From positions 1-64,000 of IMG/VR virus record IMGVR_UViG_3300035659_001663: 64,000 bases of DNA, one strand, 5' to 3'. The notes under the pieces are model-generated. The model was not told where the DNA came from, did no database searches, and saw only the letters and a list, made by a program, of their open reading frames with translations. The DNA comes from a virus. The stretch's first letter is position 1; each line of letters begins with the position of its first letter. The translations under genes and the position numbers were made by a program. This document shows positions 21,382-40,580 of this stretch, piece after piece.

Positions 21382-21426
21382 ACAGAACAGTATTCTATTG
21401 TTTTTATCTGTCATCTAATTGTAAGT

Positions 21427-22761: not shown

Positions 22762-22771
22762 GGAGCTTGTC

Positions 22772-25700
22772 ATGTTCAAGAACAAAGGTTTGTACGAGTG
22801 GAAGCTAATTGAAAGCGACAAAGTTGTGGCTGAGGGGTCACAGTGGAATACTTCTACGGATCAGATGCCATTGGTGTTTGGATGTTGGGAAGGTAACGCC
22901 CTGTTCGGTAACAATCCCAGAGAGATAACGCTGTCAGGCTCTACAGTTCCAGCAGAAGACTTTCGCCAAAGATACTCCCCTTGGCAGCGCATCACTACTC
23001 TATCAAGTGGAAGATCCACATCTCTAAGTCTAGTGACCGATCCTATCTTGAATAGTGCTTATGTGCAATATCTATTTGCCCCTCCGGGTGCTCCTCGCAC
23101 TATCAGAGTTATAGGATCAAACTTTAATGTTGGTTCATCTTATCCATACGACTATGCATCTTTTATTGAGTTGTCCGTACCTATCACGCAGCAGATCAAT
23201 CAATATCTCTTTGTTAAGTACACGATTTTCCACAGTTTTACCGCAGGAGGTTACAATTCACCTAACAATCACTATATCCAGCGCAAGATTACACAGAACT
23301 TGATGTATTATGCGTGCCGAGTTTTTGGATTGAGTAATAGCGTTCAAGGGATAAGCCCGTTTAATCCACCAACCACGCTGAATAATGTGATGAGGCATAT
23401 TTGGCGATTGGATGAGGCAGCCAGCATTCAGTGGTCCGGTCCTTGTTACGGCCATAAATGGGCAAGGGACTATGCCACTACCGAGTTGGTTGGTCCAATG
23501 GGTGTTTTTGTTTTTGGCCGTCCAAGTAGAGGGTCTGATCCTACGGATATAGCTGTTACTATTGGATATTCTACCCCTTCTGATTTTGGACCCGCTATAT
23601 CTCGTGTTTTCACACATCCTTCTGGTTATATGGACCAGATTTTTAGTGATCCCGGTCACACACCGTCGTCTCAAGGGACGATTGCTTTGTCTGGAACACC
23701 TACCAATAAACATCCTATTATTGGACGTGTACGAATTACAAAGACAGGGGATGCTTCAGATATTATTGATGATACATTCACTGTATCTGGTCCTCCTACG
23801 GATACTATTGTTACAAATAGTAGTCAAGGGCATTTAGTGGATGAACTTGTTCGGTTCACTTCCACAACTACTCTTCCTGATCCATTGCTTCCTGATACTA
23901 GCTATCATATTGTTTATAAGAGCGGAACAAGCATGAAAGTATCGTCTGTTCAAGGCGGTACTCCAATTACACTTAATGATGTTGGTACTGGTATACATAC
24001 AGTTATTAGATGGAACACGGGTCGATTCTCTCTTGAACTTGAGCCGTGGTCTTACATATATAGTGCAGGTTCATGGAGAGGTTATCCGGTATGGCAGTTG
24101 TCTATGGGCGTTGATGTCGATGGCAAGATGCAAGCCCATGATAATCAGGAGAGCATAGCGGAGTATCAAGCGACGGCGAGAACAGACAACATGATAGAGG
24201 ATCAAGTTCAGGTAGGGGACTTTATCTATTCTATTCAGAAGAGCCGATCCACGGAATTGCAGAACGTGTGCCGTTGGCGTTTCTGGACCATTGAGACTTC
24301 TGAGTCGTTGTGTAAGTTTGGTACTACTGGAACAAAAGCATATCGGATGGTCAAGGTTGGTACTAATGTCTACATAGCGACATCAGATGGGTTGTACCTG
24401 TATAGCACTCTCACCCCCACTGTTGCACCGTCACTCTTGACAATTACTAATATCTTATCTAATCCAATTTATGATTTAGCGTATGACCCAATCTCAGGGT
24501 ATCTATGGTCTGGTCATACGGCAGGTCTTAGCAAGATTGATCTTGGCGCGTCTACGGCAACTCAGTATATTACGGGTATGGGCGAGAAACTTGAAGGGAT
24601 GTCTGCTGGAAGAGCACATATTGCTACAGGACAATTGGAAGCGTACAATGGCCGTGTTATACGTGGAGGTCGTCAAAGGCTTGTCGGGGATCAATATTTT
24701 ACGGATGGCGAGAAGGCTTGGGTGCTACAAGATGAAGTTCACGACGGGAACAGTATAGGATGGTGCTCTTTTGGGGGAGCCTACGATGATTCAGCAAGAG
24801 GAACGTGTCTGCGAAAAGGTACAAATGAGATTATTGATGTTTCGGGTGGTAATCTTATGAGATACACTGTTGTAGTTACCGGAGTTGGTACTGGAACTAT
24901 AACTATAGAGGACACTTGGGTTTTGGAAGGTGTTGGTGCTTATTATGAAGGATATGTGGCACAAATATCTGATAAAACATTTCAATTTTCTTTTCAGAGT
25001 AGTAGTGGTAGGTTTTATGGACAAACTTACGTCATAGGAGGATCACATGGATCGTTAATAATAGACACATCTTTTGCTAGTTGGTCCCAGGCATATCAAT
25101 ACATGGGTTGGCCTTATGCAGGTACAACTAACTGGTACGCCCATGCATTCCGCAACACTGTAGACCTTGGAAACGGAGTTATCGTCCCTATTGCTCATTT
25201 CAACTCGATGCACTATAATGCAGAACTCGGTTATCCAACACCATTTGGGTGGAGCGGTTCTGCTTGGATTAAGGACAATACTGGCGACCGTCCGATTCCA
25301 AAGACAGGTACGACTGCACTTCTTCAGGGTGTAAGTGTTGCATTCAACAACGCAACGGGCAAGCCGTGGGACCAGCAGTTTGTTTTGGGCGATAGATTTA
25401 CATGGGTTCATGGCCCCAATAAGATCAAAGACAACCTCCAGACGATGAGTGTTGCAGCTAAGAATTACCATGTTCCTGTAGATGTTGCAAATGCTATTGC
25501 ATTTCAGATTCCTGCCGCAACTCCTTACGTTAAGCACGTAACGGAAACTACTGATCCTGATTTCCGAGCTACTGACCCTGACCCGATGGTTGTGAAAGTT
25601 ATGGAGGGTGTGACGGCGTATACTTCTTATGTCCCTACAATCATATCAACGTGGTCCGTGTCTGATCTACCTAATGACACGATAGCGTGTGGTTTGAATA

Positions 25701-26032
25701 TCGCAGACGGCACGCCTGTGAAGTTGTATCATTCAGAAACTAATCAATCGAATTTCATGTTTCCTACTCCGTTAGTCGATGGCGGTATTTATTATGCAAT
25801 CAATGTAGATACTACACATATTAAGTTAGCCGCGACTTATGCAGACGCAATGGCACATACCCCAATAGATTTCAAGAACGGAGGATACGCTTTTGGACCC
25901 GTATGGCGTATTGCCGTTATTACACCGGGAACAGGGGAGTATTCCTTCGGTTCCAACGGAGTATTTATCTTTGCAGCAGCAGACGCAAACAAGAACTTGA
26001 CCTTAACTTATACTTATTCACTTTTTGCTTAG
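22772..26032 (+). CDS. Large tail-fibre or receptor-binding protein
   Basis: A 1086-residue protein with AAGGAG before the ATG. The first 250 residues include an N-terminal unit (GLYEWKLIESDKVVAEGSQWN) and a region with VGPMGVFVFGRPSRGS. The middle has propeller-like blades (TSDGLYLYSTLTPTVAP; ISGYLWSGHTAGLSKIDLG). The C-terminal 500 residues are mixed beta with Trp/Gly-rich patches. Codons are markedly richer in G and C than the AT-rich NHL cassettes around it, suggesting a separate origin. Size and neighbours support a fibre or adhesin; no enzyme motif was seen. Confidence 0.6.
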   Translation: MFKNKGLYEWKLIESDKVVAEGSQWNTSTDQMPLVFGCWEGNALFGNNPREITLSGSTVPAEDFRQRYSPWQRITTLSSGRSTSLSLVTDPILNSAYVQYLFAPPGAPRTIRVIGSNFNVGSSYPYDYASFIELSVPITQQINQYLFVKYTIFHSFTAGGYNSPNNHYIQRKITQNLMYYACRVFGLSNSVQGISPFNPPTTLNNVMRHIWRLDEAASIQWSGPCYGHKWARDYATTELVGPMGVFVFGRPSRGSDPTDIAVTIGYSTPSDFGPAISRVFTHPSGYMDQIFSDPGHTPSSQGTIALSGTPTNKHPIIGRVRITKTGDASDIIDDTFTVSGPPTDTIVTNSSQGHLVDELVRFTSTTTLPDPLLPDTSYHIVYKSGTSMKVSSVQGGTPITLNDVGTGIHTVIRWNTGRFSLELEPWSYIYSAGSWRGYPVWQLSMGVDVDGKMQAHDNQESIAEYQATARTDNMIEDQVQVGDFIYSIQKSRSTELQNVCRWRFWTIETSESLCKFGTTGTKAYRMVKVGTNVYIATSDGLYLYSTLTPTVAPSLLTITNILSNPIYDLAYDPISGYLWSGHTAGLSKIDLGASTATQYITGMGEKLEGMSAGRAHIATGQLEAYNGRVIRGGRQRLVGDQYFTDGEKAWVLQDEVHDGNSIGWCSFGGAYDDSARGTCLRKGTNEIIDVSGGNLMRYTVVVTGVGTGTITIEDTWVLEGVGAYYEGYVAQISDKTFQFSFQSSSGRFYGQTYVIGGSHGSLIIDTSFASWSQAYQYMGWPYAGTTNWYAHAFRNTVDLGNGVIVPIAHFNSMHYNAELGYPTPFGWSGSAWIKDNTGDRPIPKTGTTALLQGVSVAFNNATGKPWDQQFVLGDRFTWVHGPNKIKDNLQTMSVAAKNYHVPVDVANAIAFQIPAATPYVKHVTETTDPDFRATDPDPMVVKVMEGVTAYTSYVPTIISTWSVSDLPNDTIACGLNIADGTPVKLYHSETNQSNFMFPTPLVDGGIYYAINVDTTHIKLAATYADAMAHTPIDFKNGGYAFGPVWRIAVITPGTGEYSFGSNGVFIFAAADANKNLTLTYTYSLFA

Positions 26033-26040
26033 GAGATACT

Positions 26041-26250
26041 ATGACCACGGAAGACATTGTTGCTTTGATCGCCCGTCAAGAGTATCTGACTGCACAGCTT
26101 AAAGTTCAGGTATTGAAAGATCCTATTGTGAAGGAGGATACATTTACTGCACTGACCAATCTTCTCAAGGTATCAGAGGCTTTGGATGATGGTATATGTG
26201 AAAATCTTGGTATTGAGTATGTTGTAAAACTCAGGATGGGTCAGTTCTGA
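26041..26250 (+). CDS. Hypothetical small protein
   Basis: A 69-residue helical protein starting at the ATG at 26041 with AGGAGA upstream; the frame is open further left but lacks a start signal. It reads as helices with acidic and hydrophobic faces (TAQLKVQVLKDPIVKEDTF). It lies between two large fibre genes and could be a fibre chaperone or trimerisation partner, which is a guess from location. Confidence 0.6.
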   Translation: MTTEDIVALIARQEYLTAQLKVQVLKDPIVKEDTFTALTNLLKVSEALDDGICENLGIEYVVKLRMGQF

Positions 26251-26252
26251 AT

Positions 26253-29200
26253 ATGTCGCTACCTGTAACTGATAAGCAAGAACTTTTTGTAAATGGGTAT
26301 GGTACTGAGTCCATACCTCAAGGGATTTCTGTTAAGGGATCTCTGTGGACTGTCATGCAGTCTTATGGGAAGTTGTTGATAAAGGAGTATTATAGTGATA
26401 GTGTTTTTTCTATAAAATTGTTTTTATACAATTTTACAACATCTTCAGCTCTTCAAAGTAATGGGTCTTTTTATACAGATCGTTTTTGGGTTTGGTACAT
26501 TAATACTAGTAAAGTTCTTACTTTACTTGAAATCGAACCAAATATTGGAATAGATCCAATACTTCATTTTTCTCGTATATTACATTCTGATGTTAGTTCA
26601 GTCTCGGTTTATGTTAATGAATTTGATGTAGTTAGACTTTCAATTCTATCAAATTCTCTACCCAAGTCACTTAAGAGTTTGACATATTTAGATGTAAAAA
26701 CATCAACGCCTACAGAAACAAACTTATCATGGGACGCAACTCGACAAGATATTTTCACACAATTTGTTAATACTAACAAATCTAATTTATCTGTAGCTTA
26801 TTCAAATGCGGCTTCACCATATTCAATCTACACTGAAGACTATTCTGTTCCAACTCCACTAAATTTGACAGCAGCACAAGTCGGTTCTAGTGCTAGTGTT
26901 CAAGTAGACTGGAATGCTTCAGTTGGATCAGATCAATACGTTTTAGAACGAGATACTAATGCTAGCTTTCCGTCACCGTCAGTGAGATATACTGGACCAT
27001 TAATTACATTTTTAGATAGTGTAACAACTATCGGAATATATTATTATAGAGTAAAAGCCAGAGTGACATCGATCTATCTAGAATCATCGTGGTCACTCAC
27101 TGCTTCAGCTATAGTTTCTCTTCCAGTAGCTCCAACAGGATTGGCAGCTGTTAATGGTATATTATTGGGCGAAGTTGATACGTCGTGGAACATTGTATCT
27201 GGAGTTGACACTTACACATTGCAAAGAGCAAAAGACGCTTTATTCACAGTCAATTTGACAACTGTTTATACTGGTGCAACTGCTTTATTTGATGAATTTG
27301 TTACGCAGGCAGCTACATATTACTATCGTGTCAGATCACATAATATTCTTGGAAATTCGAGTTGGTCAACATATGCGTCTGTAATAGTTACTGGTCCGGC
27401 AATACCGACAAATTTAGTTGTAGTTGCTGGCAGTTTCCTTGGTCAAATTAATGCTTCTTGGAATGCAGTTCCTGAAGCGACTGATTATGTTTTACAACGA
27501 GACAAAGATATAATATTTGATGGTCCAATTGATGTCTATACGGGTTCAATCACGTCATTTACTGACACAGTATCTGAGACTGCAACATATTATTATCGTG
27601 TCAAAGCTAGAAATTTATTAGGTGACTCTGATTGGTCAATCGTTGCATTTATTTCTGTCAGTATGATTAGTATTACTTATAGAAAAGTGTTTGCGTCATT
27701 AAGAACTAATAGACATGTTATAAAACAACTTGATGCGATGGTCGAACCGTTTGTTTATGATGACAAGTATTTTGGATCGTTTGGAATTGCAGGCGGCGGG
27801 ACGACAGGTTTGAATTTTCCAAACGGAATGACTGTTGATTTTGATAACAACATATATATATGTGATCACAATAATAGTCGTATTGTTAAGTTAAACAAAA
27901 ACTTATCATATATTGGATATCTTAACACAAAATTCACTATTGGTCAGCCTTGCGCAATAATGTTTAATACAGACGATCGTTATCTATATATCACTGGAAT
28001 TAGATATCATGACATCGCTGATGAAAATATCTATATGTATGTTGGTATTGAGAAATGTACAACATCTTTTACTGATGTCAAATATTCAAACGATATCTTA
28101 GGATTTTATAGACGACTGAATCAACGATCGTTAATGTATAAGCCCAATAGTATCTGTCGTGGATTTATTACATTCGTTAATGAGTATTTGATTACAGGAG
28201 TTAACAAAACTATTTATAGAGTCATCGAGACACTTACAGGCTTCTCGACAGCTATTGAAGAATCAGTAGTCGGTGAGACAGCAGAGACATATGTTGGTAT
28301 GGTCAGACATTCAAATGGTTATTTATATCTGAATACAGGTTCGCAAATAATAAAGACAGATGGTGTATTTATTAATATGGGCGATTCTGACATTTTAGCA
28401 AAAACATTATATGGTCTTAAACAAGGATTTGACGGTAATCTATTAACATATAATGTAGATAGACGGTCATTAATAGCAGTCGATGCAGATTTGAATTATG
28501 TTGATGAATTTTATATAGATTCTGGTGACACACCTGCGACGAGCTTCTATGACACGTTTGATATTGCCGTTAATTATGTAGGCATTCCTCGCGATGTGTA
28601 TAGTATCTTAAATACTCATGCTATACGATTATGGGCATCATTTTCTGAAGCTGGTCATTCGACAGGATATTCACCAAATACTGCTAGTCAAATAGATAGT
28701 TCTATTACTAGATTACAATTGATTAATTTCTTAGGCAGTGATCAAGTAAGCGATGGATTTTTGACATTAGACGCAGTCGCTGGCACTGGAACTGTTACAA
28801 CAAACTTAACTGATAATTCTGTTAGAATTACAAGTGACTTGACGATAATCATTTGGCACAAATGGGACGATGTTGCTAGTTCAAGTGGCTGGATGCTAGA
28901 CTGTTCAGGACCGTATGGTAGTCTAGCACAAGCAGATAACATGTTATATGGTATCTGGGTTACTAGTACTGGAAGCATAAAATTATATCATAAAAACAAT
29001 ATAATCACAGTTCAAACTTTCTTTGCGACAATATTTCCACGAGATGGTCAGCAGCATATGTTAATGGTTCGTAGGAATGCAACTGCAAAAACATATGATG
29101 TAAGTATAGATAATGGCGTAATTGAACAACAGCCATATCCTAGTAATCCAAATGGTGGAGGTAATGCAGTAGTTTCTATCGGTGGCAAAGATGTTGGCAG

Positions 29201-29369
29201 TAATAGAGTACGAGGTACTTACTCAGACGCTTACATATTTTCAGATTTATTGAATGATACTGAAATTGGCACTATGTATCATTATGGTCCGTCAGAACCA
29301 CCATGGTTCGATTACTCGAACTGGAATAATGGCACTGGTCTTGGTCATGTAATTTGGAAAGTAGCATGA
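26253..29369 (+). CDS. Large tail-fibre-like protein: three FN3 domains, NHL cassette copy 4, LamG-like C-terminus
   Basis: A 1038-residue protein. Residues 1-195 are a beta-rich N-terminal unit. Fibronectin type III domains occupy about 200-290, 291-382 and 383-469, each with YxLxRxxD and ATYYYRV(K/R)A(R/H)N-type strands. The NHL-like cassette (SLRTNRHVIKQLD, FPNGMTVDFDNNIYICDHNN, PNSICRGFI, VRHSNGYLYLNTGSQI) covers about 476-773. The last 240 residues resemble a LamG/concanavalin-like fold (LTIIIWHKWDD, DGQQHMLMVRRN, TYSDAYIFSDLLND), common in sugar-binding fibres. No ribosome binding site is obvious before the ATG, which lies 3 bp after the previous stop. Confidence 0.7.
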   Translation: MSLPVTDKQELFVNGYGTESIPQGISVKGSLWTVMQSYGKLLIKEYYSDSVFSIKLFLYNFTTSSALQSNGSFYTDRFWVWYINTSKVLTLLEIEPNIGIDPILHFSRILHSDVSSVSVYVNEFDVVRLSILSNSLPKSLKSLTYLDVKTSTPTETNLSWDATRQDIFTQFVNTNKSNLSVAYSNAASPYSIYTEDYSVPTPLNLTAAQVGSSASVQVDWNASVGSDQYVLERDTNASFPSPSVRYTGPLITFLDSVTTIGIYYYRVKARVTSIYLESSWSLTASAIVSLPVAPTGLAAVNGILLGEVDTSWNIVSGVDTYTLQRAKDALFTVNLTTVYTGATALFDEFVTQAATYYYRVRSHNILGNSSWSTYASVIVTGPAIPTNLVVVAGSFLGQINASWNAVPEATDYVLQRDKDIIFDGPIDVYTGSITSFTDTVSETATYYYRVKARNLLGDSDWSIVAFISVSMISITYRKVFASLRTNRHVIKQLDAMVEPFVYDDKYFGSFGIAGGGTTGLNFPNGMTVDFDNNIYICDHNNSRIVKLNKNLSYIGYLNTKFTIGQPCAIMFNTDDRYLYITGIRYHDIADENIYMYVGIEKCTTSFTDVKYSNDILGFYRRLNQRSLMYKPNSICRGFITFVNEYLITGVNKTIYRVIETLTGFSTAIEESVVGETAETYVGMVRHSNGYLYLNTGSQIIKTDGVFINMGDSDILAKTLYGLKQGFDGNLLTYNVDRRSLIAVDADLNYVDEFYIDSGDTPATSFYDTFDIAVNYVGIPRDVYSILNTHAIRLWASFSEAGHSTGYSPNTASQIDSSITRLQLINFLGSDQVSDGFLTLDAVAGTGTVTTNLTDNSVRITSDLTIIIWHKWDDVASSSGWMLDCSGPYGSLAQADNMLYGIWVTSTGSIKLYHKNNIITVQTFFATIFPRDGQQHMLMVRRNATAKTYDVSIDNGVIEQQPYPSNPNGGGNAVVSIGGKDVGSNRVRGTYSDAYIFSDLLNDTEIGTMYHYGPSEPPWFDYSNWNNGTGLGHVIWKVA

Positions 29370-29370
29370 A

Positions 29371-31026
29371 ATGTCATATTATGTGAACTTCGAAGTTGAT
29401 CATCTACCATATTTGCCTAATGATCTAAGTAATCCTATGGGTTGGCTTGATTTTGTAAACGGTCCAGCAGGGACTTATTATTGTCGAGGAATGAAGGACG
29501 ATCCAACTAGAATTCTATACTTAGCTGATAAGATATTGCTGCCATGGAGTTTAAGCGCTTTTGGATCATGGAGAATGAATGTCTTAACAATTACTGGTAC
29601 GACTGCACAATATTCAAATTCTTGGTCAATGACTGGCGGAATAGTATCAGTTAATGGTATAGTAATTCAGGGTGCAGGAGCTGTTAGAAATTACAGTTTT
29701 TATGATACACATTTTATCGTTAGTAATCAAATAATAATAAGCAGCACACTTGGTAATGCTGTTAATACTTATTTCAAAGGCTGCATTGTTAGATGTGATT
29801 CAATTGATGTCGATTTGTCTACTCCGTCAACTGTTTTGAACGGTCTCAATTTAAGAGACAGTATATTGATAGTAGACTCGAATATTAATAGAGGTAACGA
29901 ATTTAGGAACTCAGTACTCAATAGACCAATGTCAGCATGGAGTTCTGTAAGTAGTATAGTAAGTTGTCAGTTTAATTGGATTCCACCAACGTGGCCCTTA
30001 TGGAATGCAGTAAAAGATTCATGGAAATATTCAATATTAAGTCAAGGCACATCATCACCAATAGTCATATCTGCAACAGGCAGCTTTTCAGGTTATGAAT
30101 ATGATTTATTTGGAAATTTAAGATCAACAGCTGCTGGAATTGGTGCATTCTTTTTTGATGTTAGTAATTATCGATTGTATTTAGTACAGGGAATTAACAG
30201 ACATATTATCAAGAGATTAGATTCAAATGTGGCGCCTGCAGTCTTTGACGGTGAATTTTATGGTATTTACGGTGAAGCAGGCAGATTGAATTTTCCATCA
30301 AGTGTTACGACAGATGGAAGTAATATATTTCTTTGTGATTACAAAAATAGTAGAGTCATTAGATTCGACAAGACATTAAACTTTATCTATGAATATAACA
30401 CTTCACTGACAATGAATGATCAACCATTTTTGATTTATTATGATAGTATTACTACGGATTTATATGTCTTGAGAGTGACAGAGTCTCTCTGGAATATGAA
30501 GCTTGAACGGCTTGGATTTGACAATAATGGTTTCACTAGTAAGAAAATTAGTGGATTTTTAGGTAAGATGACTGATGGTCTAATGCCGACTGCTATGTGT
30601 AGAGGTTTTGCAAGTGGTGAATTTCTCGTATGCGGATTAGGTAACGATATTTACAAGACTGTAGAATCGCCAATAACATTTTCATCATTCGTTAATCAGT
30701 CAATCACTGGTCAAGAACCTAATAGATATATGGGTATGATTAAGCATTCTAATGGATATCTTTATTTGAATTCAGGATTACAATTAGTAAAAGCAAATTC
30801 GTCATTTGAGAGTCTTGGTGTGTCTAATCTTATTGCAACAGTTACGACATGTTTGAAAGAATCGCTTAATGCTAAGATACTATTGTATAGTAATCATGAT
30901 CAATCAATTTTACGATATGATACTAATTTGAATTTTGTTGAAGAAGTGTTCAAAGATAATGGTACTGGTATTGCGACTGATTCTTTTGATGTTGTTGATT
31001 TAATGGAAATTGATTTAGTAGCGTAG
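29371..31026 (+). CDS. Tail-fibre-like protein with C-terminal NHL cassette copy 5
   Basis: A 551-residue protein. Residues 1-265 form a beta-rich domain with short hydrophobic rungs (IISSTLGNAVNTYFKGCIVRCDSIDVDLS), possibly a beta-helix. The NHL-like cassette starts near 267 (YLVQGINRHIIKRLD) and runs to the end, with FPSSVTTDGSNIFLCDYKN, AMCRGFASG and IKHSNGYLYLNSGLQLV. The final bases include ATTGATTTAGTAGCGTAG, which is repeated exactly at 31382, so this gene is the direct source of the decayed copy that follows. Confidence 0.65.
   Translation: MSYYVNFEVDHLPYLPNDLSNPMGWLDFVNGPAGTYYCRGMKDDPTRILYLADKILLPWSLSAFGSWRMNVLTITGTTAQYSNSWSMTGGIVSVNGIVIQGAGAVRNYSFYDTHFIVSNQIIISSTLGNAVNTYFKGCIVRCDSIDVDLSTPSTVLNGLNLRDSILIVDSNINRGNEFRNSVLNRPMSAWSSVSSIVSCQFNWIPPTWPLWNAVKDSWKYSILSQGTSSPIVISATGSFSGYEYDLFGNLRSTAAGIGAFFFDVSNYRLYLVQGINRHIIKRLDSNVAPAVFDGEFYGIYGEAGRLNFPSSVTTDGSNIFLCDYKNSRVIRFDKTLNFIYEYNTSLTMNDQPFLIYYDSITTDLYVLRVTESLWNMKLERLGFDNNGFTSKKISGFLGKMTDGLMPTAMCRGFASGEFLVCGLGNDIYKTVESPITFSSFVNQSITGQEPNRYMGMIKHSNGYLYLNSGLQLVKANSSFESLGVSNLIATVTTCLKESLNAKILLYSNHDQSILRYDTNLNFVEEVFKDNGTGIATDSFDVVDLMEIDLVA
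31009..31026 (+). repeat. 18-bp direct repeat, left copy (gene end)
   Basis: ATTGATTTAGTAGCGTAG at the 3' end of the fibre gene is identical to 31382-31399. The two copies bracket the relic cassette, as expected after a tandem duplication. Confidence 0.85.
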
Positions 31027-31087
31027 CCTATTAAAGCCGTGACATTGTTCATGGCCTTTTTTTGTGAACATGATGATATTTTCAGCA

Positions 31088-31386
31088 AACAAGGACTCTT
31101 GAATCACCTGCTGCATTTACAGTATTTGACAATCAAGCTATAGTTGGTCAAAATCTTCGTAGATATATGGGTGATTAATGACGGTTTACAATTAATCAAA
31201 GTGAATTCATTATTTGAGAATGTTGGTGATTCTAATGAAATCGTAACTACAATCATGCGCCTAAAAGAATCTGTGCATGCAAAATTATTGACATACAACA
31301 ATAAAAATCAATCTGTTTTGCAATATGATGCAGATCTAAACTTTGCAACTGATGCCTTTGATATTGTAGATTTTCATAGAGATTGA
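31088..31386 (+). pseudogene. Decayed sixth NHL cassette
   Basis: This stretch resembles the last third of cassette copy 5 but is not a complete gene. One frame gives TLESPAAFTVF and VGQNLRRYMG, matching TVESPITFSSF and TGQEPNRYMG. After a deletion the other frame continues INDGLQLIKVNSLFENVGDSNEI...YDADLNFATDAFDIVDF. The block with the HSNGYLYLN motif is missing, and a frame change separates the two parts. An open frame from 31144 covers only the second part and has no ribosome binding site, so expression is doubtful. Confidence 0.75.
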
Positions 31387-31459: not shown

Positions 31460-32146
31460 ATGAATGTTTTCATTTATGCACTATGTGACCCTTCAACTTT
31501 TGAAGTACGTTATATTGGAAAAACAATAAATCCTTATAAACGGTATTATTCGCATTTATCTGCTAGAAGTCTTAATAGACGAATACAAACACATAAAACT
31601 CATTGGTTAAAGTCATTATTGAGACAGTCGTTATTACCAATACAACAAATTTTAGAAATATGTGATGAACGTAATTGGGAACAAAAAGAAAGTGAATGGA
31701 TAGCTTTTTATAAAAGTATTGGTTGTAATTTAACAAATGGAACACCTGGTGGGTATGGTTGGTTTAAATGTTCAGGTAAATCTAGAAAAGGTAGAAAGCT
31801 TTCTGAAGAATGGAGAGCAAAAATAAGTAAAACTTTAAAAGGAAGAAAGCTGCCAGATGAACATCGAAAAAATATAAGCAAAAATCATGCTAGAAAAGGT
31901 AAATTTGGAAAAGATTGTCCAATATTTGGTAGTCATCACTCTGACGAAACTAAAAGAAAAATGAGTGAATCGCAAAAGCTTCGAGACCCAAAAACGCGAG
32001 CAACATGGACTAGTGGCGGTCATCACACGGAAGAAGCAAAATTAAGAATAGGTAGAACAGAAAAAATTACTAAAGCAAATAAAAAATTAGAAAAATTTAT
32101 TAAAGACAATCATTTGCATCTAACTAAATATTCACATCTAAACTAA
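31460..32146 (+). CDS. GIY-YIG homing endonuclease with NUMOD3 repeats
   Basis: A 228-residue protein. The GIY-YIG nuclease core starts IYALCDPSTFEVRYIGKTINPYKRYYSH, with the conserved arginine in RYYSHLSAR and the late glutamate in WEQKESEWI. A basic C-terminal region has repeated NUMOD3-type motifs (GRKLSEEWRAKISKTLKGRKL, then GSHHSDETKRKMSESQK) that bind DNA. No ribosome binding site is obvious before the ATG. It sits beside the decayed cassette in a region of rearrangement. Free-standing enzymes of this family cut intron- or gene-free alleles and spread into phage genomes. Confidence 0.85.
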   Translation: MNVFIYALCDPSTFEVRYIGKTINPYKRYYSHLSARSLNRRIQTHKTHWLKSLLRQSLLPIQQILEICDERNWEQKESEWIAFYKSIGCNLTNGTPGGYGWFKCSGKSRKGRKLSEEWRAKISKTLKGRKLPDEHRKNISKNHARKGKFGKDCPIFGSHHSDETKRKMSESQKLRDPKTRATWTSGGHHTEEAKLRIGRTEKITKANKKLEKFIKDNHLHLTKYSHLN

Positions 32147-32162: not shown

Positions 32163-32699
32163 GTGTTCTTGATAATCGAGGGAATTCACAACACTGGTAA
32201 GACTACGTTAGTTGAATCATTGAGAAGTCAATTCAAAGTATTTTCATGTAGACGGTTATTTCCCGAATTAGTCAATTCAAGAAACACACAGATCTCAGAT
32301 TTTTCATTTGGTGTAAATTGTTCGATTACGTGGTTTGCAAAAGAGATGTCACATGATGATGTATTGTTTGATAGACTGCATGTGTCTGAGTACGCTTATA
32401 GTACTAGTATTCGTCATACAAATGAGATAGAGGCGTTCAGAAATTTTAGAATGATTGATACTGCATTATCTAAATGTAATGTTAAGATGATACTCTTGAC
32501 ATGTGATTATGATACTATGTGTAAGAGATTGCAAGAAAAAAATAGTATCTATAGTAAAGACGATTATGATGTGTTAACAGTAATGTTTAGTAAGGCACTT
32601 TACGCTACATTAATTCCGTCAATTGTGATTGATACAAGTAAATTCAATAAATCACAGGTAGTAAGTAAATCATTAGATTTCATAAAAGGATTATCATGA
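32163..32699 (+). CDS. Deoxynucleotide kinase-like P-loop protein
   Basis: A 178-residue protein starting at a GTG with AGAGATG upstream. The P-loop is EGIHNTGKTTL (K13). A DRLHVSEYAYS segment matches the DR(Y/H) substrate region of thymidylate and deoxynucleoside kinases, and the C-terminal helix has a typical LID-like KRLQEKNS. The end overlaps the radical SAM gene by 4 bp. It could phosphorylate a deoxynucleotide, or a base in DNA as hypermodification kinases do; the substrate is uncertain. Confidence 0.65.
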   Translation: MFLIIEGIHNTGKTTLVESLRSQFKVFSCRRLFPELVNSRNTQISDFSFGVNCSITWFAKEMSHDDVLFDRLHVSEYAYSTSIRHTNEIEAFRNFRMIDTALSKCNVKMILLTCDYDTMCKRLQEKNSIYSKDDYDVLTVMFSKALYATLIPSIVIDTSKFNKSQVVSKSLDFIKGLS

Positions 32700-33787
32700 G
32701 TTTGTCTGTTGAAGAAAAATTAAGAAAGCACGCTGATAGAATTACACAGTCTACTAACTCATGTTTATTAACATTGCAACTTGATCTTACTGACTTTTGT
32801 GTTTGTAAGTGTAAAGGTTGTGAACACTGGAAATGGCCAGTTAAAACAAAACTTAGTCGTGAAATATTGGATAAGAACGTTCTACCGTACTTGGAAGAAT
32901 TCGATTCATTACAATCAATAGTTCTTTCAGGTGGTGAACCCTTACTTCATCCTGAAGTTGAACAAATAGTTCATCATATAAAGCAAGAGTATGGATTAAA
33001 CATTGGCATAATAACATCAGGATTGGGACATGCTAATTTAGATTGGGCATCATTGTCTAGAGATTGTAGTTGGATAAGATTTTCAACTGACGGGTTTACA
33101 TCAGAAAACTACACTGAAACTCGCGGTGTAGACATGTTTGATCAATGGAAAAAAAATCTATTGACATTGTTGAAAGAGAATGAGCAAACAAAATGTAAAA
33201 CAAGACTTAATGTTACCATTCACGATTACAATAAGCACAACTTTGTAGACGGATTAGTAGATTTTTTAGATAACAATGATGTTGATGTTGAAATATTTTT
33301 TTGGTTATCAAGGGAAATAATTGCTAGACTTAGAAAGCTTGAAAGTAGTGAACAACGACGACAGTCAGATGACTGTCAAACAATTTTCAAACAAGTTAGT
33401 AAGTTGCATCATAGATCAAAAGCATATTACGTTTATAATTATGATAATATCTTTTCTCACATCGGTGATACAGAAGTTAGTGATTATCATTCTTGTTTCA
33501 TTCCTAAAATATTTGCATTAATCGCTTCTGACGGTAATGTGTTTCCGTGCTGCTATGCGTATGAACCAGTGTTTTCAATGGACAAACAACAAACAAAGTT
33601 CGTGATTGGCAATGTTAATGAAAACACTTTAGCTGAAATTTACTCTAGTGATCGATATAAAACAGTTGTTGATCAATTTCTTAACTGTGATAAGAAATAT
33701 GAAATGTGTCAATATTGTGACAGATTTGATCATATCAATGTTCATCTAAACAATTATAGACCTATTAGTGATCCAATATTTCTATGA
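32696..33787 (+). CDS. Radical SAM protein with SPASM-like C-terminus
   Basis: A 363-residue protein. Radical SAM cysteines C35, C39 and C42 occur in DFCVCKCKGCEHW (CxxxCxxC), followed by the SAM-binding SGGEPLLHPE motif. The C-terminal half has further cysteines in DYHSCFIPKIF, NVFPCCYAY and MCQYCDRF, as in SPASM or twitch auxiliary cluster domains. Such enzymes carry out radical chemistry on peptides, nucleosides or sugars. It overlaps the kinase-like gene upstream and the glycosylase-like gene downstream by 4 bp each, so the three products are probably made together. The substrate is unknown; DNA or nucleotide modification is a hypothesis. Confidence 0.85.
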   Translation: MSLSVEEKLRKHADRITQSTNSCLLTLQLDLTDFCVCKCKGCEHWKWPVKTKLSREILDKNVLPYLEEFDSLQSIVLSGGEPLLHPEVEQIVHHIKQEYGLNIGIITSGLGHANLDWASLSRDCSWIRFSTDGFTSENYTETRGVDMFDQWKKNLLTLLKENEQTKCKTRLNVTIHDYNKHNFVDGLVDFLDNNDVDVEIFFWLSREIIARLRKLESSEQRRQSDDCQTIFKQVSKLHHRSKAYYVYNYDNIFSHIGDTEVSDYHSCFIPKIFALIASDGNVFPCCYAYEPVFSMDKQQTKFVIGNVNENTLAEIYSSDRYKTVVDQFLNCDKKYEMCQYCDRFDHINVHLNNYRPISDPIFL

Positions 33788-34398
33788 AATTTTCTTTACT
33801 GCAACAAAAAGTTAATGACGTTGAACAACAAATATTCAATTGCAGTAAGTGTCCAGAACTATTTGAACTAAGACAAAACAAAGTTCATAACTGTCCTGTT
33901 CTTGGATTTAATGTCGTACACTACGCTAATGCTAGAGTTTGTTCTATATGTGAAGCACCGGGAGTATACAAACCTCACAAGGGCGAACAACTAATTGACA
34001 AACTTGAAGATTTTCACAAGATATACGACGACAGAATACAAAATGTTTCTTTAATTGGCTCTAGACTATTTGAAATTTATAGTAAAGCAAACTTGACTTG
34101 GCAAGATATACAACATTTCAATGTAGTATGTTGTAGTCCACCGAATTATCGTAAACCGCAAGTTGATGAAGTTGTTAGTTGTTTACCGTTTCTATTGATG
34201 CGCATTAATCTAGTGCAAAGGATGAAAGTAATTATTACTTTTGGAACTGTTGCTAAAAATGCTGTAAAAAGATTCAAGTTAAACGTGCCTATAGTTTATT
34301 CACATCATCCAAGTTATATTTACTCATATATGCCAGAATCTGAAAGACAAGATTACATAAATCGTGTTGCAAATAGCATTAAAAAATGTCTCACGTAA
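33784..34398 (+). CDS. Family 4 uracil-DNA glycosylase-like protein
   Basis: A 204-residue protein. An N-terminal CxxC (C20, C23) resembles the iron-sulfur ligands of family 4 UDGs. ICEAPGVYKP stands for the VGEAPG active-site loop, NVVCCSPPNYRKPQVDEV for the middle N(V)(V)KCxPPxNR block, IITFGTVAKNAV for the later strand and YSHHPSYIYSY for the final HPS loop. Several positions differ from the classic motif, for example the residue before EAPG is Cys instead of Gly. It may remove uracil or recognise another base. It overlaps the radical SAM gene and a short gene downstream. Confidence 0.7.
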   Translation: MKFSLLQQKVNDVEQQIFNCSKCPELFELRQNKVHNCPVLGFNVVHYANARVCSICEAPGVYKPHKGEQLIDKLEDFHKIYDDRIQNVSLIGSRLFEIYSKANLTWQDIQHFNVVCCSPPNYRKPQVDEVVSCLPFLLMRINLVQRMKVIITFGTVAKNAVKRFKLNVPIVYSHHPSYIYSYMPESERQDYINRVANSIKKCLT

Positions 34399-34622
34399 TT
34401 CAATTGATTAATGGGTTTGCAATAATTGTTGACGACAAACAGTTCAGTCGTTGCAAATGGCAATTCACTAGCACATTTCATTTTAGCAAGTTCATTACAG
34501 TGACTGACATTCATGGGCATAAAATAACTGTACCAAAAAAGTATATATTACTATTTGAGTTGTATAATGAAGAAATCAAGACGCAAAAAAATCAAGACAA
34601 TTCCATTGCCAGCATCATTTGA
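34386..34622 (+). CDS. Hypothetical small protein
   Basis: A 78-residue protein whose start lies 12 bp inside the UDG-like gene. Its beta-rich body (VIQLINGFAIIVDDKQF, then FITVTDIHGHKITVPKKYILL) suggests a small domain. It overlaps the next frame by 56 bp at its 3' end. No family recognised. Confidence 0.5.
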   Translation: MSHVIQLINGFAIIVDDKQFSRCKWQFTSTFHFSKFITVTDIHGHKITVPKKYILLFELYNEEIKTQKNQDNSIASII

Positions 34623-34944
34623 TGAGACAAATCAAATGTTAAAGGCTAAGTTTTCAGTTAAATACATTAACTATGTCACTAATAATGGTATAATCAGGTT
34701 CGGTTGGCTAATATCTAATGAGCAATCGATTGATGAAGCAATTAAGTTATTGAAAGTTCAAGCAGCACCTATTTACATACTAGGTCGATTTGCAAGTGCT
34801 GTTGTTTCATGGAATGCAATTAAGATAAACATGATGGGTAGTCTGTATAAAAGCGGTGAAGAATCTGATAAGTTTAGAACAGATGATTTTGACATTACTA
34901 AAAGTAAACTAACTGAGTGGTATAAGATCTGCAATAATGAATGA
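34567..34944 (+). CDS. Hypothetical protein
   Basis: A 125-residue protein starting at the ATG at 34567; a TTG four codons upstream is also in frame. The N-terminus is very basic (KKSRRKKIKT). The body has strand-helix repeats (GIIRFGWLISNEQSIDEAIKLL). It lies in a run of overlapping small genes between the UDG-like gene and gyrase. No function recognised. Confidence 0.5.
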   Translation: MKKSRRKKIKTIPLPASFDETNQMLKAKFSVKYINYVTNNGIIRFGWLISNEQSIDEAIKLLKVQAAPIYILGRFASAVVSWNAIKINMMGSLYKSGEESDKFRTDDFDITKSKLTEWYKICNNE

Positions 34945-35367: not shown

Positions 35368-35628
35368 ATGATTTACGACTATCGATGCGAATGTGGGAAT
35401 ATACAAGAAGAAATGCATGGGATGAATGAAAATCCTGTAATAGTTTGTAAGAAGTGCACAAAGACGATGCAACGAATTATTACTGGCGGCGCAGGCGTAG
35501 TATTTAAGGGTGGCGGGTGGCCATCAGCTGACGCAAGATTCAAAGACTCAATGACAAAAAAGAGTGCTCGAAAAGCTCAAAAAGCCAAAGATCACAACAA
35601 ACCTGTTACATCATTAGGTGATCTCTAA
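35368..35628 (+). CDS. FmdB-like zinc-ribbon protein
   Basis: An 86-residue protein with AAAGGAGG before the ATG. YDYRCECGNIQEEMHGMNENPVIVCKKC is the FmdB zinc ribbon (CxC and CxxC ligands), followed by the usual MQRIITGGAGVVFKGGGWP tail. A related gene occurs at 44053. Such small ribbons are common in phages, and their role is not settled. The 156 bp after it hold no recognisable gene. Confidence 0.75.
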   Translation: MIYDYRCECGNIQEEMHGMNENPVIVCKKCTKTMQRIITGGAGVVFKGGGWPSADARFKDSMTKKSARKAQKAKDHNKPVTSLGDL

Positions 35629-35784: not shown

Positions 35785-35997
35785 ATGAAGTTTGTCGTTG
35801 TCTATACGAATTGCGACTGTGCAAGTGGAAAGACAATTCGTAGAGATCGTATTTGGAACTTGGGTCCTCGATGTCCTCATTGTTACAAAATACTGGGACC
35901 GATGCAATACACAATTCATGAAGAAATAACTGCTAAGAATTTAGACGAAGCTTATAGGAAATGGAGAGAAATCAAAGATGGCCAAAGAAAAAGATAA
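35785..35997 (+). CDS. Hypothetical zinc-binding small protein
   Basis: A 70-residue protein with two Cys pairs (NCDC and RCPHCYKILG) likely to bind zinc, and a basic C-terminal helix. Its last 20 bp overlap the GyrB start, so it is probably translated just before gyrase. Function unknown. Confidence 0.55.
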   Translation: MKFVVVYTNCDCASGKTIRRDRIWNLGPRCPHCYKILGPMQYTIHEEITAKNLDEAYRKWREIKDGQRKR

Positions 35998-37912
35998 GTA
36001 CGACGAACATTCAATTCAACAACTAGATGATAGGTCACACGTAAGACTACGACCATCAATGTATGTGGGTGATACTGGCTTATTTGGTTTACATCATCTA
36101 GTATATGAAGTCGTAGACAATAGCATCGATGAAATCACTAATGGTTATGGAGATACTATTACCTGTATTATCCATAAAGATGGATTCGTTACCGAAAGTG
36201 ACAATGGTCGTGGCATTCCGGTGGGCATCAAAAAAGAGACAGGCAAGTCAGCAGCTGAAATGGTGATGACATCTCTACGCTCTGGCGGCAAATTCAATAG
36301 TACTTCTTACAAAACATCTTCAGGTCTACATGGTATTGGAGTTTCTGCTGTCAATTTTCTATCTGATCATCTAGACTTGACTATCTGTCGTGAAGGTTTC
36401 TCTTGGCAACAATCTTACAAAAAGGGATTGGCTGTTTCTCCCTTTGGCAAAGGCGCTGCTACTGACAAAACAGGCACTACAGTCAAGTTCAAACCTGATC
36501 ACACAATTTTCCAAACAATAGACTTTCAATACAAGATCTTACATGATCGGTTAAAAGAATTAGCCTATTTGAATAAAGGTGTGAAAATCGAAGTTGTTGA
36601 TGAACGAACAGAAGAAAGAGCTGAATTCTATTCTGACGGCGGAATAGTGGCTTTTATTGAAGATTTGAATAAAGGTAAAGAATCTCTTGGACCAATTATT
36701 CATCTTGATGAAAGTGTCAAGGTCAAGAATGAGACAGTAGGTAATTATGATGTCAGGATAGAAATTGCATTTCAATACAATAATGGTTACTCTGACATCA
36801 TCTATTCTTTTGCTAATAATGTAAATACTAGGGATGGTGGATCACATCTATCTGGGTTCAAATCAGCTTTGCTTGAAGCCATCGTCAAGTATTCTGAGAA
36901 GAAGAAGTTGTTCAAGGGACTAGATATTCGACCGACTCCTCGTGATGTATTGGAAGGTTTGGCTTCGATAATCTCAGTTAAGTTACCAAATCCTGAGTTT
37001 GAAGGTCAGACAAAATCTACATTGGGTAATCCTGAAATCAAGGAAATTGTTTATAATCAGGTACTTGACGCAATTACATCGTATTTTTCAAGCAATGATG
37101 ATATCGCGATGCTAATTGCCAGTAAGGTTTCGCAAGCTTGTATAGCAAGGGAAGAAGCTAGGAAAGCTCGTGATGCAGTTCGGAGAAAGAATGTTTTGTC
37201 ATCATCAATCTTGCCTGGCAAGTTGGCCGATTGCTCAAGCAAGAATGTCGATATTTGCGAAGTCTTCGTGGTAGAAGGTGATTCTGCAGCCGGTTCTGCT
37301 AAGATGGGACGTAACAGAATTTTTCAAGCAGTTTTACCATTAAAGGGTAAAATTTTGAACGTCGAAAAGAGCGAGTTGTCTGAGATACTCGAGAATAAAG
37401 AAGTAAAAGCACTGATTGCAGCAATTGGTATAAATATCCAAACGGGCGACATTTCAAAGCTTCGATATGGTAAGATTATCATTAATTGCGACGCTGATGT
37501 CGATGGCGCTCACATTTCGTCATTATTGTTGACAGTGTTTTTCAGGTTTATGAAACCATTGTTAACAGAAGGTCATGTCTATATAGCTCAACCTCCATTG
37601 TATAAAGTCAAGTATGGTATGAATGATTTTTACTTGGCAGATGACGAAGCGTTAGCTGCTTGGAAAAAGTCAGTGAAGAATCCTGATAAGGCAGTGATTA
37701 CTCGATTCAAAGGTTTGGGAGAAATGAATCCTGAACAGCTTGGTGAAACCACAATGAATCCTGCAACACGAAGGTTGGCTAAGGTCATAGTTACAGATGA
37801 AGCCGAAACAGATCGAATATTCACTATATTGATGGGCAATGATGTTGATAGTCGAAGAGAGTACATTGTACAGAACGCATTGATGATAGATGAAGATGCA
37901 ATTGACGCATAA
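35978..37912 (+). CDS. gyrB: DNA gyrase subunit B (type IIA topoisomerase ATPase subunit)
   Basis: A 644-residue GHKL-ATPase and TOPRIM subunit. ATP-site residues lie in YEVVDNSIDE (E44 as base, N48 for Mg), ESDNGRGIP and GLHGIGVSAVN. The TOPRIM domain has VVEGDSAAGSA and DADVDGAHI, with the C-terminal GLGEMNPEQL module complete. It is the length of bacterial GyrB/ParE. The partner subunit follows 10 bp later. With the GyrA-box-like motif of the partner, gyrase is more likely than topoisomerase IV. It would use ATP to drive strand passage in phage DNA. Confidence 0.95.
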   Translation: MAKEKDKYDEHSIQQLDDRSHVRLRPSMYVGDTGLFGLHHLVYEVVDNSIDEITNGYGDTITCIIHKDGFVTESDNGRGIPVGIKKETGKSAAEMVMTSLRSGGKFNSTSYKTSSGLHGIGVSAVNFLSDHLDLTICREGFSWQQSYKKGLAVSPFGKGAATDKTGTTVKFKPDHTIFQTIDFQYKILHDRLKELAYLNKGVKIEVVDERTEERAEFYSDGGIVAFIEDLNKGKESLGPIIHLDESVKVKNETVGNYDVRIEIAFQYNNGYSDIIYSFANNVNTRDGGSHLSGFKSALLEAIVKYSEKKKLFKGLDIRPTPRDVLEGLASIISVKLPNPEFEGQTKSTLGNPEIKEIVYNQVLDAITSYFSSNDDIAMLIASKVSQACIAREEARKARDAVRRKNVLSSSILPGKLADCSSKNVDICEVFVVEGDSAAGSAKMGRNRIFQAVLPLKGKILNVEKSELSEILENKEVKALIAAIGINIQTGDISKLRYGKIIINCDADVDGAHISSLLLTVFFRFMKPLLTEGHVYIAQPPLYKVKYGMNDFYLADDEALAAWKKSVKNPDKAVITRFKGLGEMNPEQLGETTMNPATRRLAKVIVTDEAETDRIFTILMGNDVDSRREYIVQNALMIDEDAIDA

Positions 37913-37922
37913 GGAGTGAAAG

Positions 37923-40580
37923 ATGGCTGATGAGATTGAAGATCGAGAAGAAGATCAAGAAGAGCAAGTGAATATTGATCAAGAAATTGGTCAGTTTGAT
38001 GTGAAGTCACATGAAGTATTGCCTAAGATGTATTTGGCTTATGCTTTGAGTGTCATCAAAGATCGATCATTGCCAGATATTCGTGACGGGCTAAAGCCTG
38101 TTGCACGACGTATACTATTCAGCATGAATGAAATGGGTCTTATGCATAACAAGCCGACAAGGAAATCTGCAAGAGTTGTTGGCGACGTTATGGGCAGACT
38201 TCATCCTCATGGCGACGGGGCAATATATGGCACTGCCGTCCGAATCGCGCAACCGTTTACAACTAGATATCCGTTAATAATTGGTCAAGGTAATTTTGGA
38301 TCATTAGAAGATCCGCCAGCTGCAATGCGATATACAGAAATGAAGATGGCTGAAATTACGCAAGAGGTTGTAGCTGATCTTGACAAAGAGACTGTTGACT
38401 TCAAACCTAATTTTGATGGCACATTACAAGAGCCCAAAGTATTGCCTACGAGACTTCCATTGTTTTTGCTGAATGGTTCTATTGGCATTGCTGTTGGTAT
38501 GGCTACTTCTGCACCACCGCACAATTTGACAGAAGTAGTCAATGCATTACTTGCTTTTATTGATAATGAAGACATTACTGTTGCTGAATTGACAAAGTTT
38601 ATTAAAGGACCTGATTTTCCGTCAGCAGCATATATGTTCGATTCAAATGTCAAAACTATATATGAAACTGGTCGTGGATCAGTAATTCTTCGAGCAAAAG
38701 CAGAAATCGAAGAGACTAACAAGAGACAACGAATCATAGTTACAGAATTACCATATCATGTAGATAGGTCGAAGTTGATTGCTCGAATTGCTGAGTTGTA
38801 TCAAGATAAGGAGAAAAAGCTTGAAGGTATTGAAGGTATTACAGACATTCGAGATGAATCTGATAAGACTGGAACGAGGATAGTTATTGAGTTGCGTAAG
38901 GGTGTCAAAGCCAAGATGGTTTTGAACACACTATATCGTAGAACTGAAATGCAGTCAAAACACTCTATATTGATGAGAGCATTGATTAACAATAGTCCTA
39001 AGTTAGTCGGGCTGAAGGAAGTGTTTTGGCATTTTGTGGATCATCGTAAGAGTGTTGTTATTAGACGAGCAGAATTTGATCTTAGGAGTGCAGAAAAACG
39101 AGATCATATACTACAAGGATTTTTGATTGCATTTGATAATCTCGACACGGTGATTCAAGATGTCAAGACTTCAAAATCAAATGAAGAAACTTACAAGCGA
39201 CTTCGTAAGTACAAACTGACTGATGAACAAATCAAGGCTATTCTTGAATTGAGAGTTCAACGTCTTGCTCAATTTGAACGTGATCAGATTACTACTGAAC
39301 GTAATGAGTTGGTTGCAAAGATCAATCAATTGCGACAACTATTAGATTCTGAAGACCTTGTGTTACAGACGATAAAGAATGAACTCATTGACATTAGAAC
39401 TAAATATGGTGATGAACGTCGCACAAAGATTATCAAGACGAGGCCTGAAGATGGCGGTGATGGAAATGTTGAGATTAAGGAGATTGAAGAGGTTCAAGAC
39501 GATGAAGTGATAGTGACAGTTACCCATAATGGTTTCGTAAAACGTACTCCGATTACTGAGTATAGGACTCAAAACATCAAAGGTAAAGGACTAATAGGTT
39601 GCGATGTTAAAGACGGAGATTATGTTGAAAGCATGTTCCAACTATCGACTAGAGATGCTACGTTAGTCTTTACAAACAATGGCAATTGTTACAAGATGAA
39701 TGTCTATGACATACCGTCATTGGGTCGGACAGCTTCGGGTAGTTCAATTCTAAATGTGATTGGAATGAATGAGGGTGAGAAAGTTGTAAGAGTGATACCT
39801 ATTACTAATCTTGATGGTAAAGCGTTTTTGATGGTTAGTAAAAAGGGTCAGATTAAGAAGTTGAAGTCTGAGAAATTGCGTCGACCAAGATCATCAGGTA
39901 CTAGAGTGATGGGACTCGATGAAGGTGATTTGTTGGTTGATGTTGCATTCATTGATAAGCAAGACATGAATGTTTTGATGGTTACAAGGGATGGTATATC
40001 AATACGGTTTGAAGAAAAAGCTATTCGTACATCTGGAAAGAGTAGTTCAGGTGTTCGGTCAATAAGACTGCAAGAGAACAACTACATCATTTCAATGAAT
40101 GTGTTTGAGAGTGCTAAGCATGAAGAACAGTTCATAATGATAGTGACTGAAAAGGGTTATTCAAAGAAGACAATATTGAGGAAATTTCGTATCCAGAAGA
40201 GAGGTGGACGTGGAGTTATTTGTATGGACATCAGTAGTACTACTGGCAAAATAGTATCTGCTGGAATTGCAAAGGATGAGAAGGAACAGTTCATTATTAT
40301 AACGGCCAAGGGAATTTTGATTCGGTTACGGTCAAAGCAGATTAGAAAACTTGGTCGTAATACTCAAGGTAGTCGCATTCAGAATGTGCAAAGTAATGAC
40401 TGTGTAGCAGCTGTTGCATTTCTTGGAATTGTAGATGAAGATGTCAAGTTTGATAAAGTACAAGATGCTGAAACTGATGCGAATGAAGTTATTGAGGATA
40501 AGGATGATGATAGTGAGTTTGCAAATGATGATGGTGAAGAAGATAATTCAAAAGAAGTAGATGATGACGAAAAAGAGTAA
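37923..40580 (+). CDS. gyrA: DNA gyrase subunit A, with GyrA-box-like motif
   Basis: An 885-residue cleavage subunit with AAGGAG before the ATG. It has LPDIRDGLKPVARRIL, GDVMGRLHPHGDGAIYG and catalytic Y137 in AMRYTEMKM. The C-terminal domain has repeated propeller blades and QKRGGRG at 758-764, matching the GyrA box that wraps DNA and allows negative supercoiling. A long acidic tail (DDDEKE at the end) follows, as in tails that tune gyrase activity. The end overlaps the next small gene by 20 bp. It cuts and rejoins DNA with GyrB. Confidence 0.95.
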   Translation: MADEIEDREEDQEEQVNIDQEIGQFDVKSHEVLPKMYLAYALSVIKDRSLPDIRDGLKPVARRILFSMNEMGLMHNKPTRKSARVVGDVMGRLHPHGDGAIYGTAVRIAQPFTTRYPLIIGQGNFGSLEDPPAAMRYTEMKMAEITQEVVADLDKETVDFKPNFDGTLQEPKVLPTRLPLFLLNGSIGIAVGMATSAPPHNLTEVVNALLAFIDNEDITVAELTKFIKGPDFPSAAYMFDSNVKTIYETGRGSVILRAKAEIEETNKRQRIIVTELPYHVDRSKLIARIAELYQDKEKKLEGIEGITDIRDESDKTGTRIVIELRKGVKAKMVLNTLYRRTEMQSKHSILMRALINNSPKLVGLKEVFWHFVDHRKSVVIRRAEFDLRSAEKRDHILQGFLIAFDNLDTVIQDVKTSKSNEETYKRLRKYKLTDEQIKAILELRVQRLAQFERDQITTERNELVAKINQLRQLLDSEDLVLQTIKNELIDIRTKYGDERRTKIIKTRPEDGGDGNVEIKEIEEVQDDEVIVTVTHNGFVKRTPITEYRTQNIKGKGLIGCDVKDGDYVESMFQLSTRDATLVFTNNGNCYKMNVYDIPSLGRTASGSSILNVIGMNEGEKVVRVIPITNLDGKAFLMVSKKGQIKKLKSEKLRRPRSSGTRVMGLDEGDLLVDVAFIDKQDMNVLMVTRDGISIRFEEKAIRTSGKSSSGVRSIRLQENNYIISMNVFESAKHEEQFIMIVTEKGYSKKTILRKFRIQKRGGRGVICMDISSTTGKIVSAGIAKDEKEQFIIITAKGILIRLRSKQIRKLGRNTQGSRIQNVQSNDCVAAVAFLGIVDEDVKFDKVQDAETDANEVIEDKDDDSEFANDDGEEDNSKEVDDDEKE

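Follow-up and report, generated by a model that had tools for sequence, protein, structure and literature searches.

A conserved kinase, radical SAM and UDG-derived gene trio in phage-G-like jumbo phages and its possible part in handling modified DNA precursors and bases

Introduction

The 5-hydroxymethylcytosine (hmC) pathway of bacteriophage T4 comprises the gp56 dCTPase, the gp42 dCMP hydroxymethylase, the gp1 kinase, and glucosyltransferases. The dCTPase and the hydroxymethylase serve the synthesis of hmC, and the gp1 kinase is needed for the phosphorylation of hm-dCMP. When hmC is deaminated, 5-hydroxymethyluracil (hmU) is formed. This base is a known substrate of SMUG1, a member of the uracil-DNA glycosylase (UDG) superfamily. 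For the family-4 enzyme Tth UDGa of the same superfamily, published data on the base pocket assign to E47 the exclusion of thymine and to N89 the positioning of water. The superfamily also offers a precedent for a pocket whose C5 side was rebuilt for modified phage bases (glucosyl-hmC or hmC), namely the products of the bacterial defence genes Brig1 and Brig3. Brig1, a glycosylase of cytosine derivatives, has E147 at the site of the Asn with which uracil enzymes read the base, and D127 is a pocket residue of Brig3. Another kind of modification, the hypermodification of thymidine, is known to include radical SAM and kinase steps.

The stretch of DNA considered here (the window) consists of 64,000 nucleotides of IMG/VR record IMGVR_UViG_3300035659_001663, a virus fragment of 73,182 bp. 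It carries adjacent genes for a nucleotide kinase, a radical SAM (rSAM) enzyme, and a UDG-like protein, for which a possible DNA-base modification system was originally predicted.

Organization of the trio locus

The three genes lie on the + strand and, as the original prediction stated, overlap by 4 bp each, both junctions (kinase/rSAM and rSAM/UDG) being ATGA. The first (32163..32699) starts with GTG and encodes a thymidylate-kinase-like P-loop nucleotide kinase of 178 aa, the second (32696..33787) an rSAM enzyme of 363 aa with a C-terminal twitch-like domain, for which a single auxiliary cluster is predicted, and the third (33784..34398) a family-4 UDG-derived Fe-S protein of 204 aa with a remodelled base pocket. 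Overlaps of 4 bp are common in the window's fragment (8 of the 65 pairs formed by neighbouring + strand ORFs), so those of the trio are, on their own, weak evidence. The genes that follow, up to gyrA, are also on the + strand. A conserved 78-aa ORF (34386..34622), without a match in the Pfam search, starts before the UDG gene ends, and the next in the block is a conserved 129-aa ORF (34555..34944; pN/pS 0.28 versus L002); both have homologues in all four relatives described below (L002, L003, L004, and L011). Between the trio block and gyrB, a small zinc-ribbon protein is encoded (35368..35628; Zn_ribbon_8, E=2e-8, just below the Pfam cut-off), which is kept in relatives. The conserved neighbours gyrB and gyrA (35978..40580) were recognized by sequence and by synteny with the large contigs G002 and G003, and after gyrA the conserved block continues with a topoisomerase I gene, starting at 40785. 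Since the trio opens this longer block with gyrase and topoisomerase, adjacency need not imply a single pathway.

Directly upstream of the trio, a GIY-YIG/NUMOD3 homing endonuclease gene was found (31460..32146, + strand; NUMOD3 E=8e-9, PHROG 314 E=3e-21), which was not seen at the corresponding position in L002, L003, L004, or L011. L011 contains an IscB-like RRXRR/HNH gene (7162-8448) between rSAM and UDG and, at 11688-12455, a split gyrB with an intein-like tail. Together with the GIY-YIG gene of the window, these elements indicate that the region is a recurrent target of homing elements.

Conservation of the trio and its carriers

Pattern searches through 2.9 million viral contigs revealed the rSAM in four further records besides the window (L002, L003, L004, and L011). 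The kinase-rSAM-UDG order is kept in 5/5 IMG/VR records with the rSAM. It is unbroken even where other genes, named by inspection, stand between rSAM and UDG: a 64-aa zinc-ribbon ORF in L004 and the IscB-like HNH gene in L011. Identity to the homologues in the window amounts to 56-80% for rSAM, 62-84% for UDG, and 45-71% for the kinase. The pN/pS values calculated for the window versus L002 are 0.28 (kinase), 0.20 (rSAM), and 0.12 (UDG), with 0.06 for gyrB; the range of 0.12-0.28 points to purifying selection on kinase, rSAM, and UDG alike. The conservation of order in all five records and the pN/pS values constitute stronger evidence for the trio than the overlaps do.

The major capsid protein of the window is 47% identical to its Bacillus phage G counterpart, which identifies the trio carriers as phage-G-like jumbo phages. 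G002 (330 kb) and G003 (416 kb) are the two largest trio-bearing contigs and were read piecewise; of the 349 ORFs of G002, 177 have a match in G003 and 54 have one in the window record. Three fragments from the wider clade, larger (119-211 kb) but trio-less and all of them incomplete genomes, are without rSAM, UDG, gyrB, and hydroxymethylase.

Several other features of these phages were noticed. An N-terminal leader like MKHLAQIQxEFLKxA is shared by otherwise different proteins and recalls the T4 capsid-targeting sequence; with one pattern, it was found 12 times in G002 (at 14171, 71660, 240748, 266063, 266533, 314886, and others), three times in G003, and once in the window (12663). Paralogous NHL-like proteins that carry TQRTNRHIVKxLDS motifs are arrayed at positions 17044-31386 of the window, the last being an 80-aa remnant (31144-31386). 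The window (2822-5520 and 11862-12578) also has genes for PP2C phosphatase, VWA, and protein kinase-like proteins, a set reminiscent of TerY-P triads. A PARP with WGR, an isochorismatase-family protein, and, named by inspection, macro-domain-like and NAD synthetase-like proteins (G002 235934-237379; window 6239-7198 and 8081-8614; G003 304292-305899) may together form an NAD/ADP-ribosylation gene set in the clade.

The kinase

The assignment of the first protein as a nucleotide-kinase-like P-loop protein is confirmed by its match to PHROG 761 (thymidylate kinase), which extends across its length (E=2e-14). The AAA_18, Thymidylate_kin, and dTMP_kinase models are reached as well, all below cut-off, with thymidylate kinase family scores of 22.6 versus a cut-off of 27 in Pfam and 34 versus 83 for TIGR00041. 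The nearest solved sequence is YorR of prophage SPbeta (E=5e-6). The motifs of the protein are the P-loop EGIHNTGKTT and FDRLHVSEYAYS; the P-loop and the DR..S..AY motif align with those of thymidylate kinases and YorR. However, the Asp that follows the P-loop EG in the aligned thymidylate kinases is His9 in the trio kinase, and trio kinases have Ser or Gly in place of the Gln that follows AY. Judging from thymidylate kinase structures, these replacements may be signs of a changed substrate. No residue that fixes base specificity was found in the trio kinase.

The radical SAM enzyme

The second protein matches the Pfam models Radical_SAM (E=7e-9) and SPASM (E=2e-13), both over the cut-off. Its core CX3CX2C at C35/C39/C42, common to the twitch enzymes BtrN, MoaA, and SkfB and to BlsE, is intact and invariant in five sequences, and the same is true of the extra C-terminal cysteines, arranged as C267-X12-G-X4-C285, C286, and C331-X6-C338-X2-C341. 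In these respects the predicted radical SAM/SPASM enzyme was recovered, but the full SPASM motif was not. The published seven-Cys motif reads CX9-15GX4C-gap-CX2CX5CX3C-gap-C; its first part is present as CX12GX4C, whereas CX2CX5CX3C is missing in 5/5 rSAMs, and by the published definition the domain is therefore twitch-like. The presence of CX3CX2C together with C267, C285, and the CX2C at 338-341 corresponds to a twitch enzyme, the number of one auxiliary cluster being a prediction, and residues 252-343 align with the twitch region of BtrN (E=0.011).

The structure model of the rSAM is weak (pLDDT 63). Its best fold matches in Foldseek are BlsE, at the top, viperins, SuiB, and SkfB; BlsE and viperin both act on cytosine nucleosides or nucleotides. 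The peptide enzymes score nearly as high, and the fold matches obtained with this model do not separate nucleotide from peptide substrates. By sequence, the best PDB profile match is YydG and the best family score in NCBIfam is that of a tungsten-enzyme maturase model, while the viperin model is matched at E=7e-12, far under its cut-off. In contrast to the shared core, no close sequence relative of the trio rSAM was seen outside the trio records: the matches in deposited phages are only about 24% identical, and the 44 stretches matched in the genome collection, which was scanned for bacterial relatives, include none, which is weak evidence of absence since the pattern was drawn from a narrow family. 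The trio phages encode several further rSAM genes.

The UDG-like protein

A UDG4-like protein with an altered EAPG loop was expected from the third gene, and this is what was found. The protein belongs to the UDG superfamily (Pfam, E=3e-13, over cut-off) and matches the NCBIfam type-4 UDG model at E=2.5e-14, below cut-off; as the scores of 53 bits for Arch_udg (cut-off 250) and 41 for TIGR00758 (cut-off 125) are under the thresholds, it is classed as UDG4-derived and not as UDG4. Among solved structures, family-4 UDGs are the best matches by sequence and by fold, with Tth UDGa, S. tokodaii UDG, and T. maritima TM0511 at the top of the Foldseek matches (model pLDDT 72). In common with this family, the protein has four Fe-S ligands (Cys20, Cys23, Cys117, and Cys133), which are invariant in five sequences and align with those of canonical phage UDG4s, and the catalytic residues Glu57, Asn113, and His175 (E41, N80, and H155 in Tth UDGa numbering). 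In place of the motif 1 GE(A/G)PG, four sequences have CEAPG and one has AEAPG, so that EAPG is intact and the first Gly is gone. Motif 2 is HPS in four sequences and HTS in L004; Asn113 and His175 are invariant.

The pocket differs from that of family-4 UDGs. In the alignment, K63 takes the place of E47 and Y122 that of N89 (Tth UDGa), both invariantly, at sites where the model is uncertain; in the altered loop, residues 60-85, its pLDDT is below 50. Motif 1 is followed by an insertion of about 15 residues, the segment of F54 (Tth UDGa) is replaced, and the hairpin preceding motif 2 is missing. Where the C5 gate of a UDG would stand, there is a conserved basic/aromatic run, YKPHK, which, like Tyr122, replaces canonical residues and is invariant in 5/5 homologues. 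All 12 of the chosen pocket positions are invariant, compared with 89 of 204 overall (hypergeometric P=3e-5), a value that is indicative only because the positions were chosen with conservation already in view. The invariance of the replacing residues fits altered specificity better than decay. Compared by description, the protein resembles Brig1 and Brig3 in its rebuilt C5 side; however, it is a phage protein and not a product of bacterial defence genes, and Asn113 stands at the base-recognition position where Brig1 has Glu, which favours a uracil-type base.

In G003, a separate family-1 UNG is also present, and the trio UDG is thus not required there for ordinary uracil repair. In G002, no UDG was seen other than that of the trio, and plain uracil repair by the trio UDG is therefore possible there. 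The rSAM-link-UDG pairing of Haft (TIGR03914 to 03916) was considered as well and is unsupported: the UDG matches TIGR03914 at E=0.12 only, and TIGR03916 is absent for the rSAM among the best 25 of 41 matches listed.

Cytosine-modification genes in the large relatives

Both large relatives encode a thymidylate-synthase-fold protein recognized as dCMP hydroxymethylase (G002 187931-188659; G003 265563-266300). The two are 67% identical to one another, and the G002 protein shares 45-51% identity with its counterparts in T4-like phages. In the PDB, it comes closest to T4 deoxycytidylate hydroxymethylase, gp42 (phmmer, E=1e-48, 169 bits), with thymidylate synthases far behind (E about 1e-9). D189 of G002 aligns with the Asp of T4 gp42 for which the solved variant 6l18 has Asn; G003 has Asp too. 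Similarity to gp42 and Asp in place of the thymidylate synthase Asn together identify the proteins as T4-type. The hydroxymethylase lies about 160 kb from the trio in G002 and 220 kb in G003; it was seen only in these relatives, the region being outside the window's 73-kb fragment. Near it, both contigs have a dUTPase_2/dCTPase-family gene (PF08761) and a conserved glycosyltransferase-like gene with a weak Pfam match, for which no match was obtained in deposited phages or the PDB. Two further genes were noted in these contigs: a DUF1848 protein with a C-terminal CX3CX2C is conserved close to the hydroxymethylase (G002 189794-190498; G003 264865-265566), and a second thymidylate-synthase-like gene (G003 251289-252224; 37 bits) has, by eye, Asn at the position of the dCMP-enzyme Asp.

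G002 and G003 thus resemble T4 in the hydroxymethylase ortholog, the dCTPase-family gene, and the glycosyltransferase-like gene, but no relative of gp1 was found in them. In the trio records, neither a match to DNMK, the T4 gp1 family, nor a thymidylate-kinase match outside the trio was obtained, and by inspection the other P-loop proteins of G002 and G003 look PNK-type, NadR-type, or AAA. By elimination, the trio kinase is therefore the best candidate for the hm-dCMP step. Given the hydroxymethylase in both large relatives, modified DNA is likely in the trio-bearing clade, and the modification is probably cytosine-based, that is, DNA with hmC. A thymidine-hypermodification pathway is not supported: the ADDT pyrophosphorylase family (PF18724) has no match in the five trio records, three of which are short fragments, and the dCMP-type Asp of the hydroxymethylase points to cytosine. 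Hypermodification of the ADDT type was rejected for lack of such an ADDT match.

Possible roles of the trio

We tentatively propose that the trio forms a conserved part of an operon and handles modified DNA precursors and bases in phage-G-like jumbo phages with probably hmC-based DNA. The strongest of the three steps that we infer from sequence concerns the UDG4-derived protein, which, given the kept Glu, Asn, and His, would be an active DNA glycosylase. It would read a uracil-type face via Asn113 and, with its C5 side changed, remove a C5-substituted uracil, the simplest target being hmU from deaminated hmC. In the second-strongest step, the kinase would replace T4 gp1 and phosphorylate hm-dCMP. 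The weakest step is that of the rSAM, which might oxidise or otherwise alter a nucleotide, or a similar small molecule, belonging to that pathway. For the kinase and the UDG, roles in precursor supply and in the editing or repair of bases are an equally good fit. From the originally predicted base modification system, the conserved gene set, the altered UDG pocket, and a modification context (the hydroxymethylase of the large relatives) are retained; installation of the modification by the trio is not, the evidence leaning more to supply and editing.

It is somewhat unlikely that the three genes have no common pathway, an ordinary dNMP kinase, a uracil-repair glycosylase, and an rSAM with an unrelated substrate being brought together by the tight packing of phage genes. 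Such an arrangement would agree with the frequency of 4-bp overlaps, with the place of the trio at the head of a longer block that includes gyrB, gyrA, and topA, with the UDG4 Fe-S cysteines, Glu, Asn, and His that are kept, with the lack of a second UDG in G002, and with the several other rSAM genes of these phages. However, it leaves aside that the order outlasts the IscB-like insertion in L011 and the zinc-ribbon ORF in L004 and that the pocket is unlike that of canonical phage UDG4s at E47, N89, the post-motif-1 segment, and the hairpin, with the new residues invariant. An unlikely alternative is a hypermodified base, with a hydroxymethyl group that is activated by the kinase and rearranged or decorated by the rSAM, and with base editing or exchange by the UDG-like protein. 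Here the hydroxymethylase of the clade would supply the C5 handle and YKPHK in place of the C5 gate is accommodated, as are the enzyme types of thymidine hypermodification, but the ADDT family is without a match in the trio records, the kinase matches the thymidylate-kinase type with no 5-hmdU DNA kinase family among its profile matches, and the glycosyltransferase-like gene would provide a simpler decoration. A phage-encoded system that exchanges or hypermodifies pyrimidine bases, in which the coupled kinase and rSAM would make a C5 intermediate, charged or decorated, for recognition by the UDG4 derivative through its basic C5 pocket, may be regarded as improbable.

Two further possibilities concern the rSAM substrate. 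Modification of a peptide or protein, as performed by many SPASM/twitch enzymes, is distinctly unlikely: Pfam gave no peptide-binding RRE-type domain, and the neighbouring 78-aa ORF, with no Pfam match, is by inspection unlike a precursor peptide, even though the best fold matches include SuiB and SkfB and YydG is the best PDB profile match by sequence. Still less credence, and very little, is given to a system like CMPK2/viperin (ddhCTP), in which kinase and rSAM would make a modified nucleotide that does not enter DNA as a standard base and the UDG would be a separate gene. The NCBIfam viperin match and the viperins among the best fold matches were the reasons to consider it; against them stand the low confidence of the fold model, the tungsten-enzyme maturase model as the best family score, and the twitch domain of the rSAM. 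Viperin is not known to have a twitch domain.

If, according to the tentative proposal of modified-base handling, the glycosylase acts on deaminated hmC, this would explain how a cytosine-replacing phage copes with a product that ordinary UNG and UDG4 exclude, and the protein would be a phage-side counterpart of the Brig defence glycosylases. New nucleotide chemistry may most directly be sought in the rSAM, which is coupled between kinase and glycosylase.
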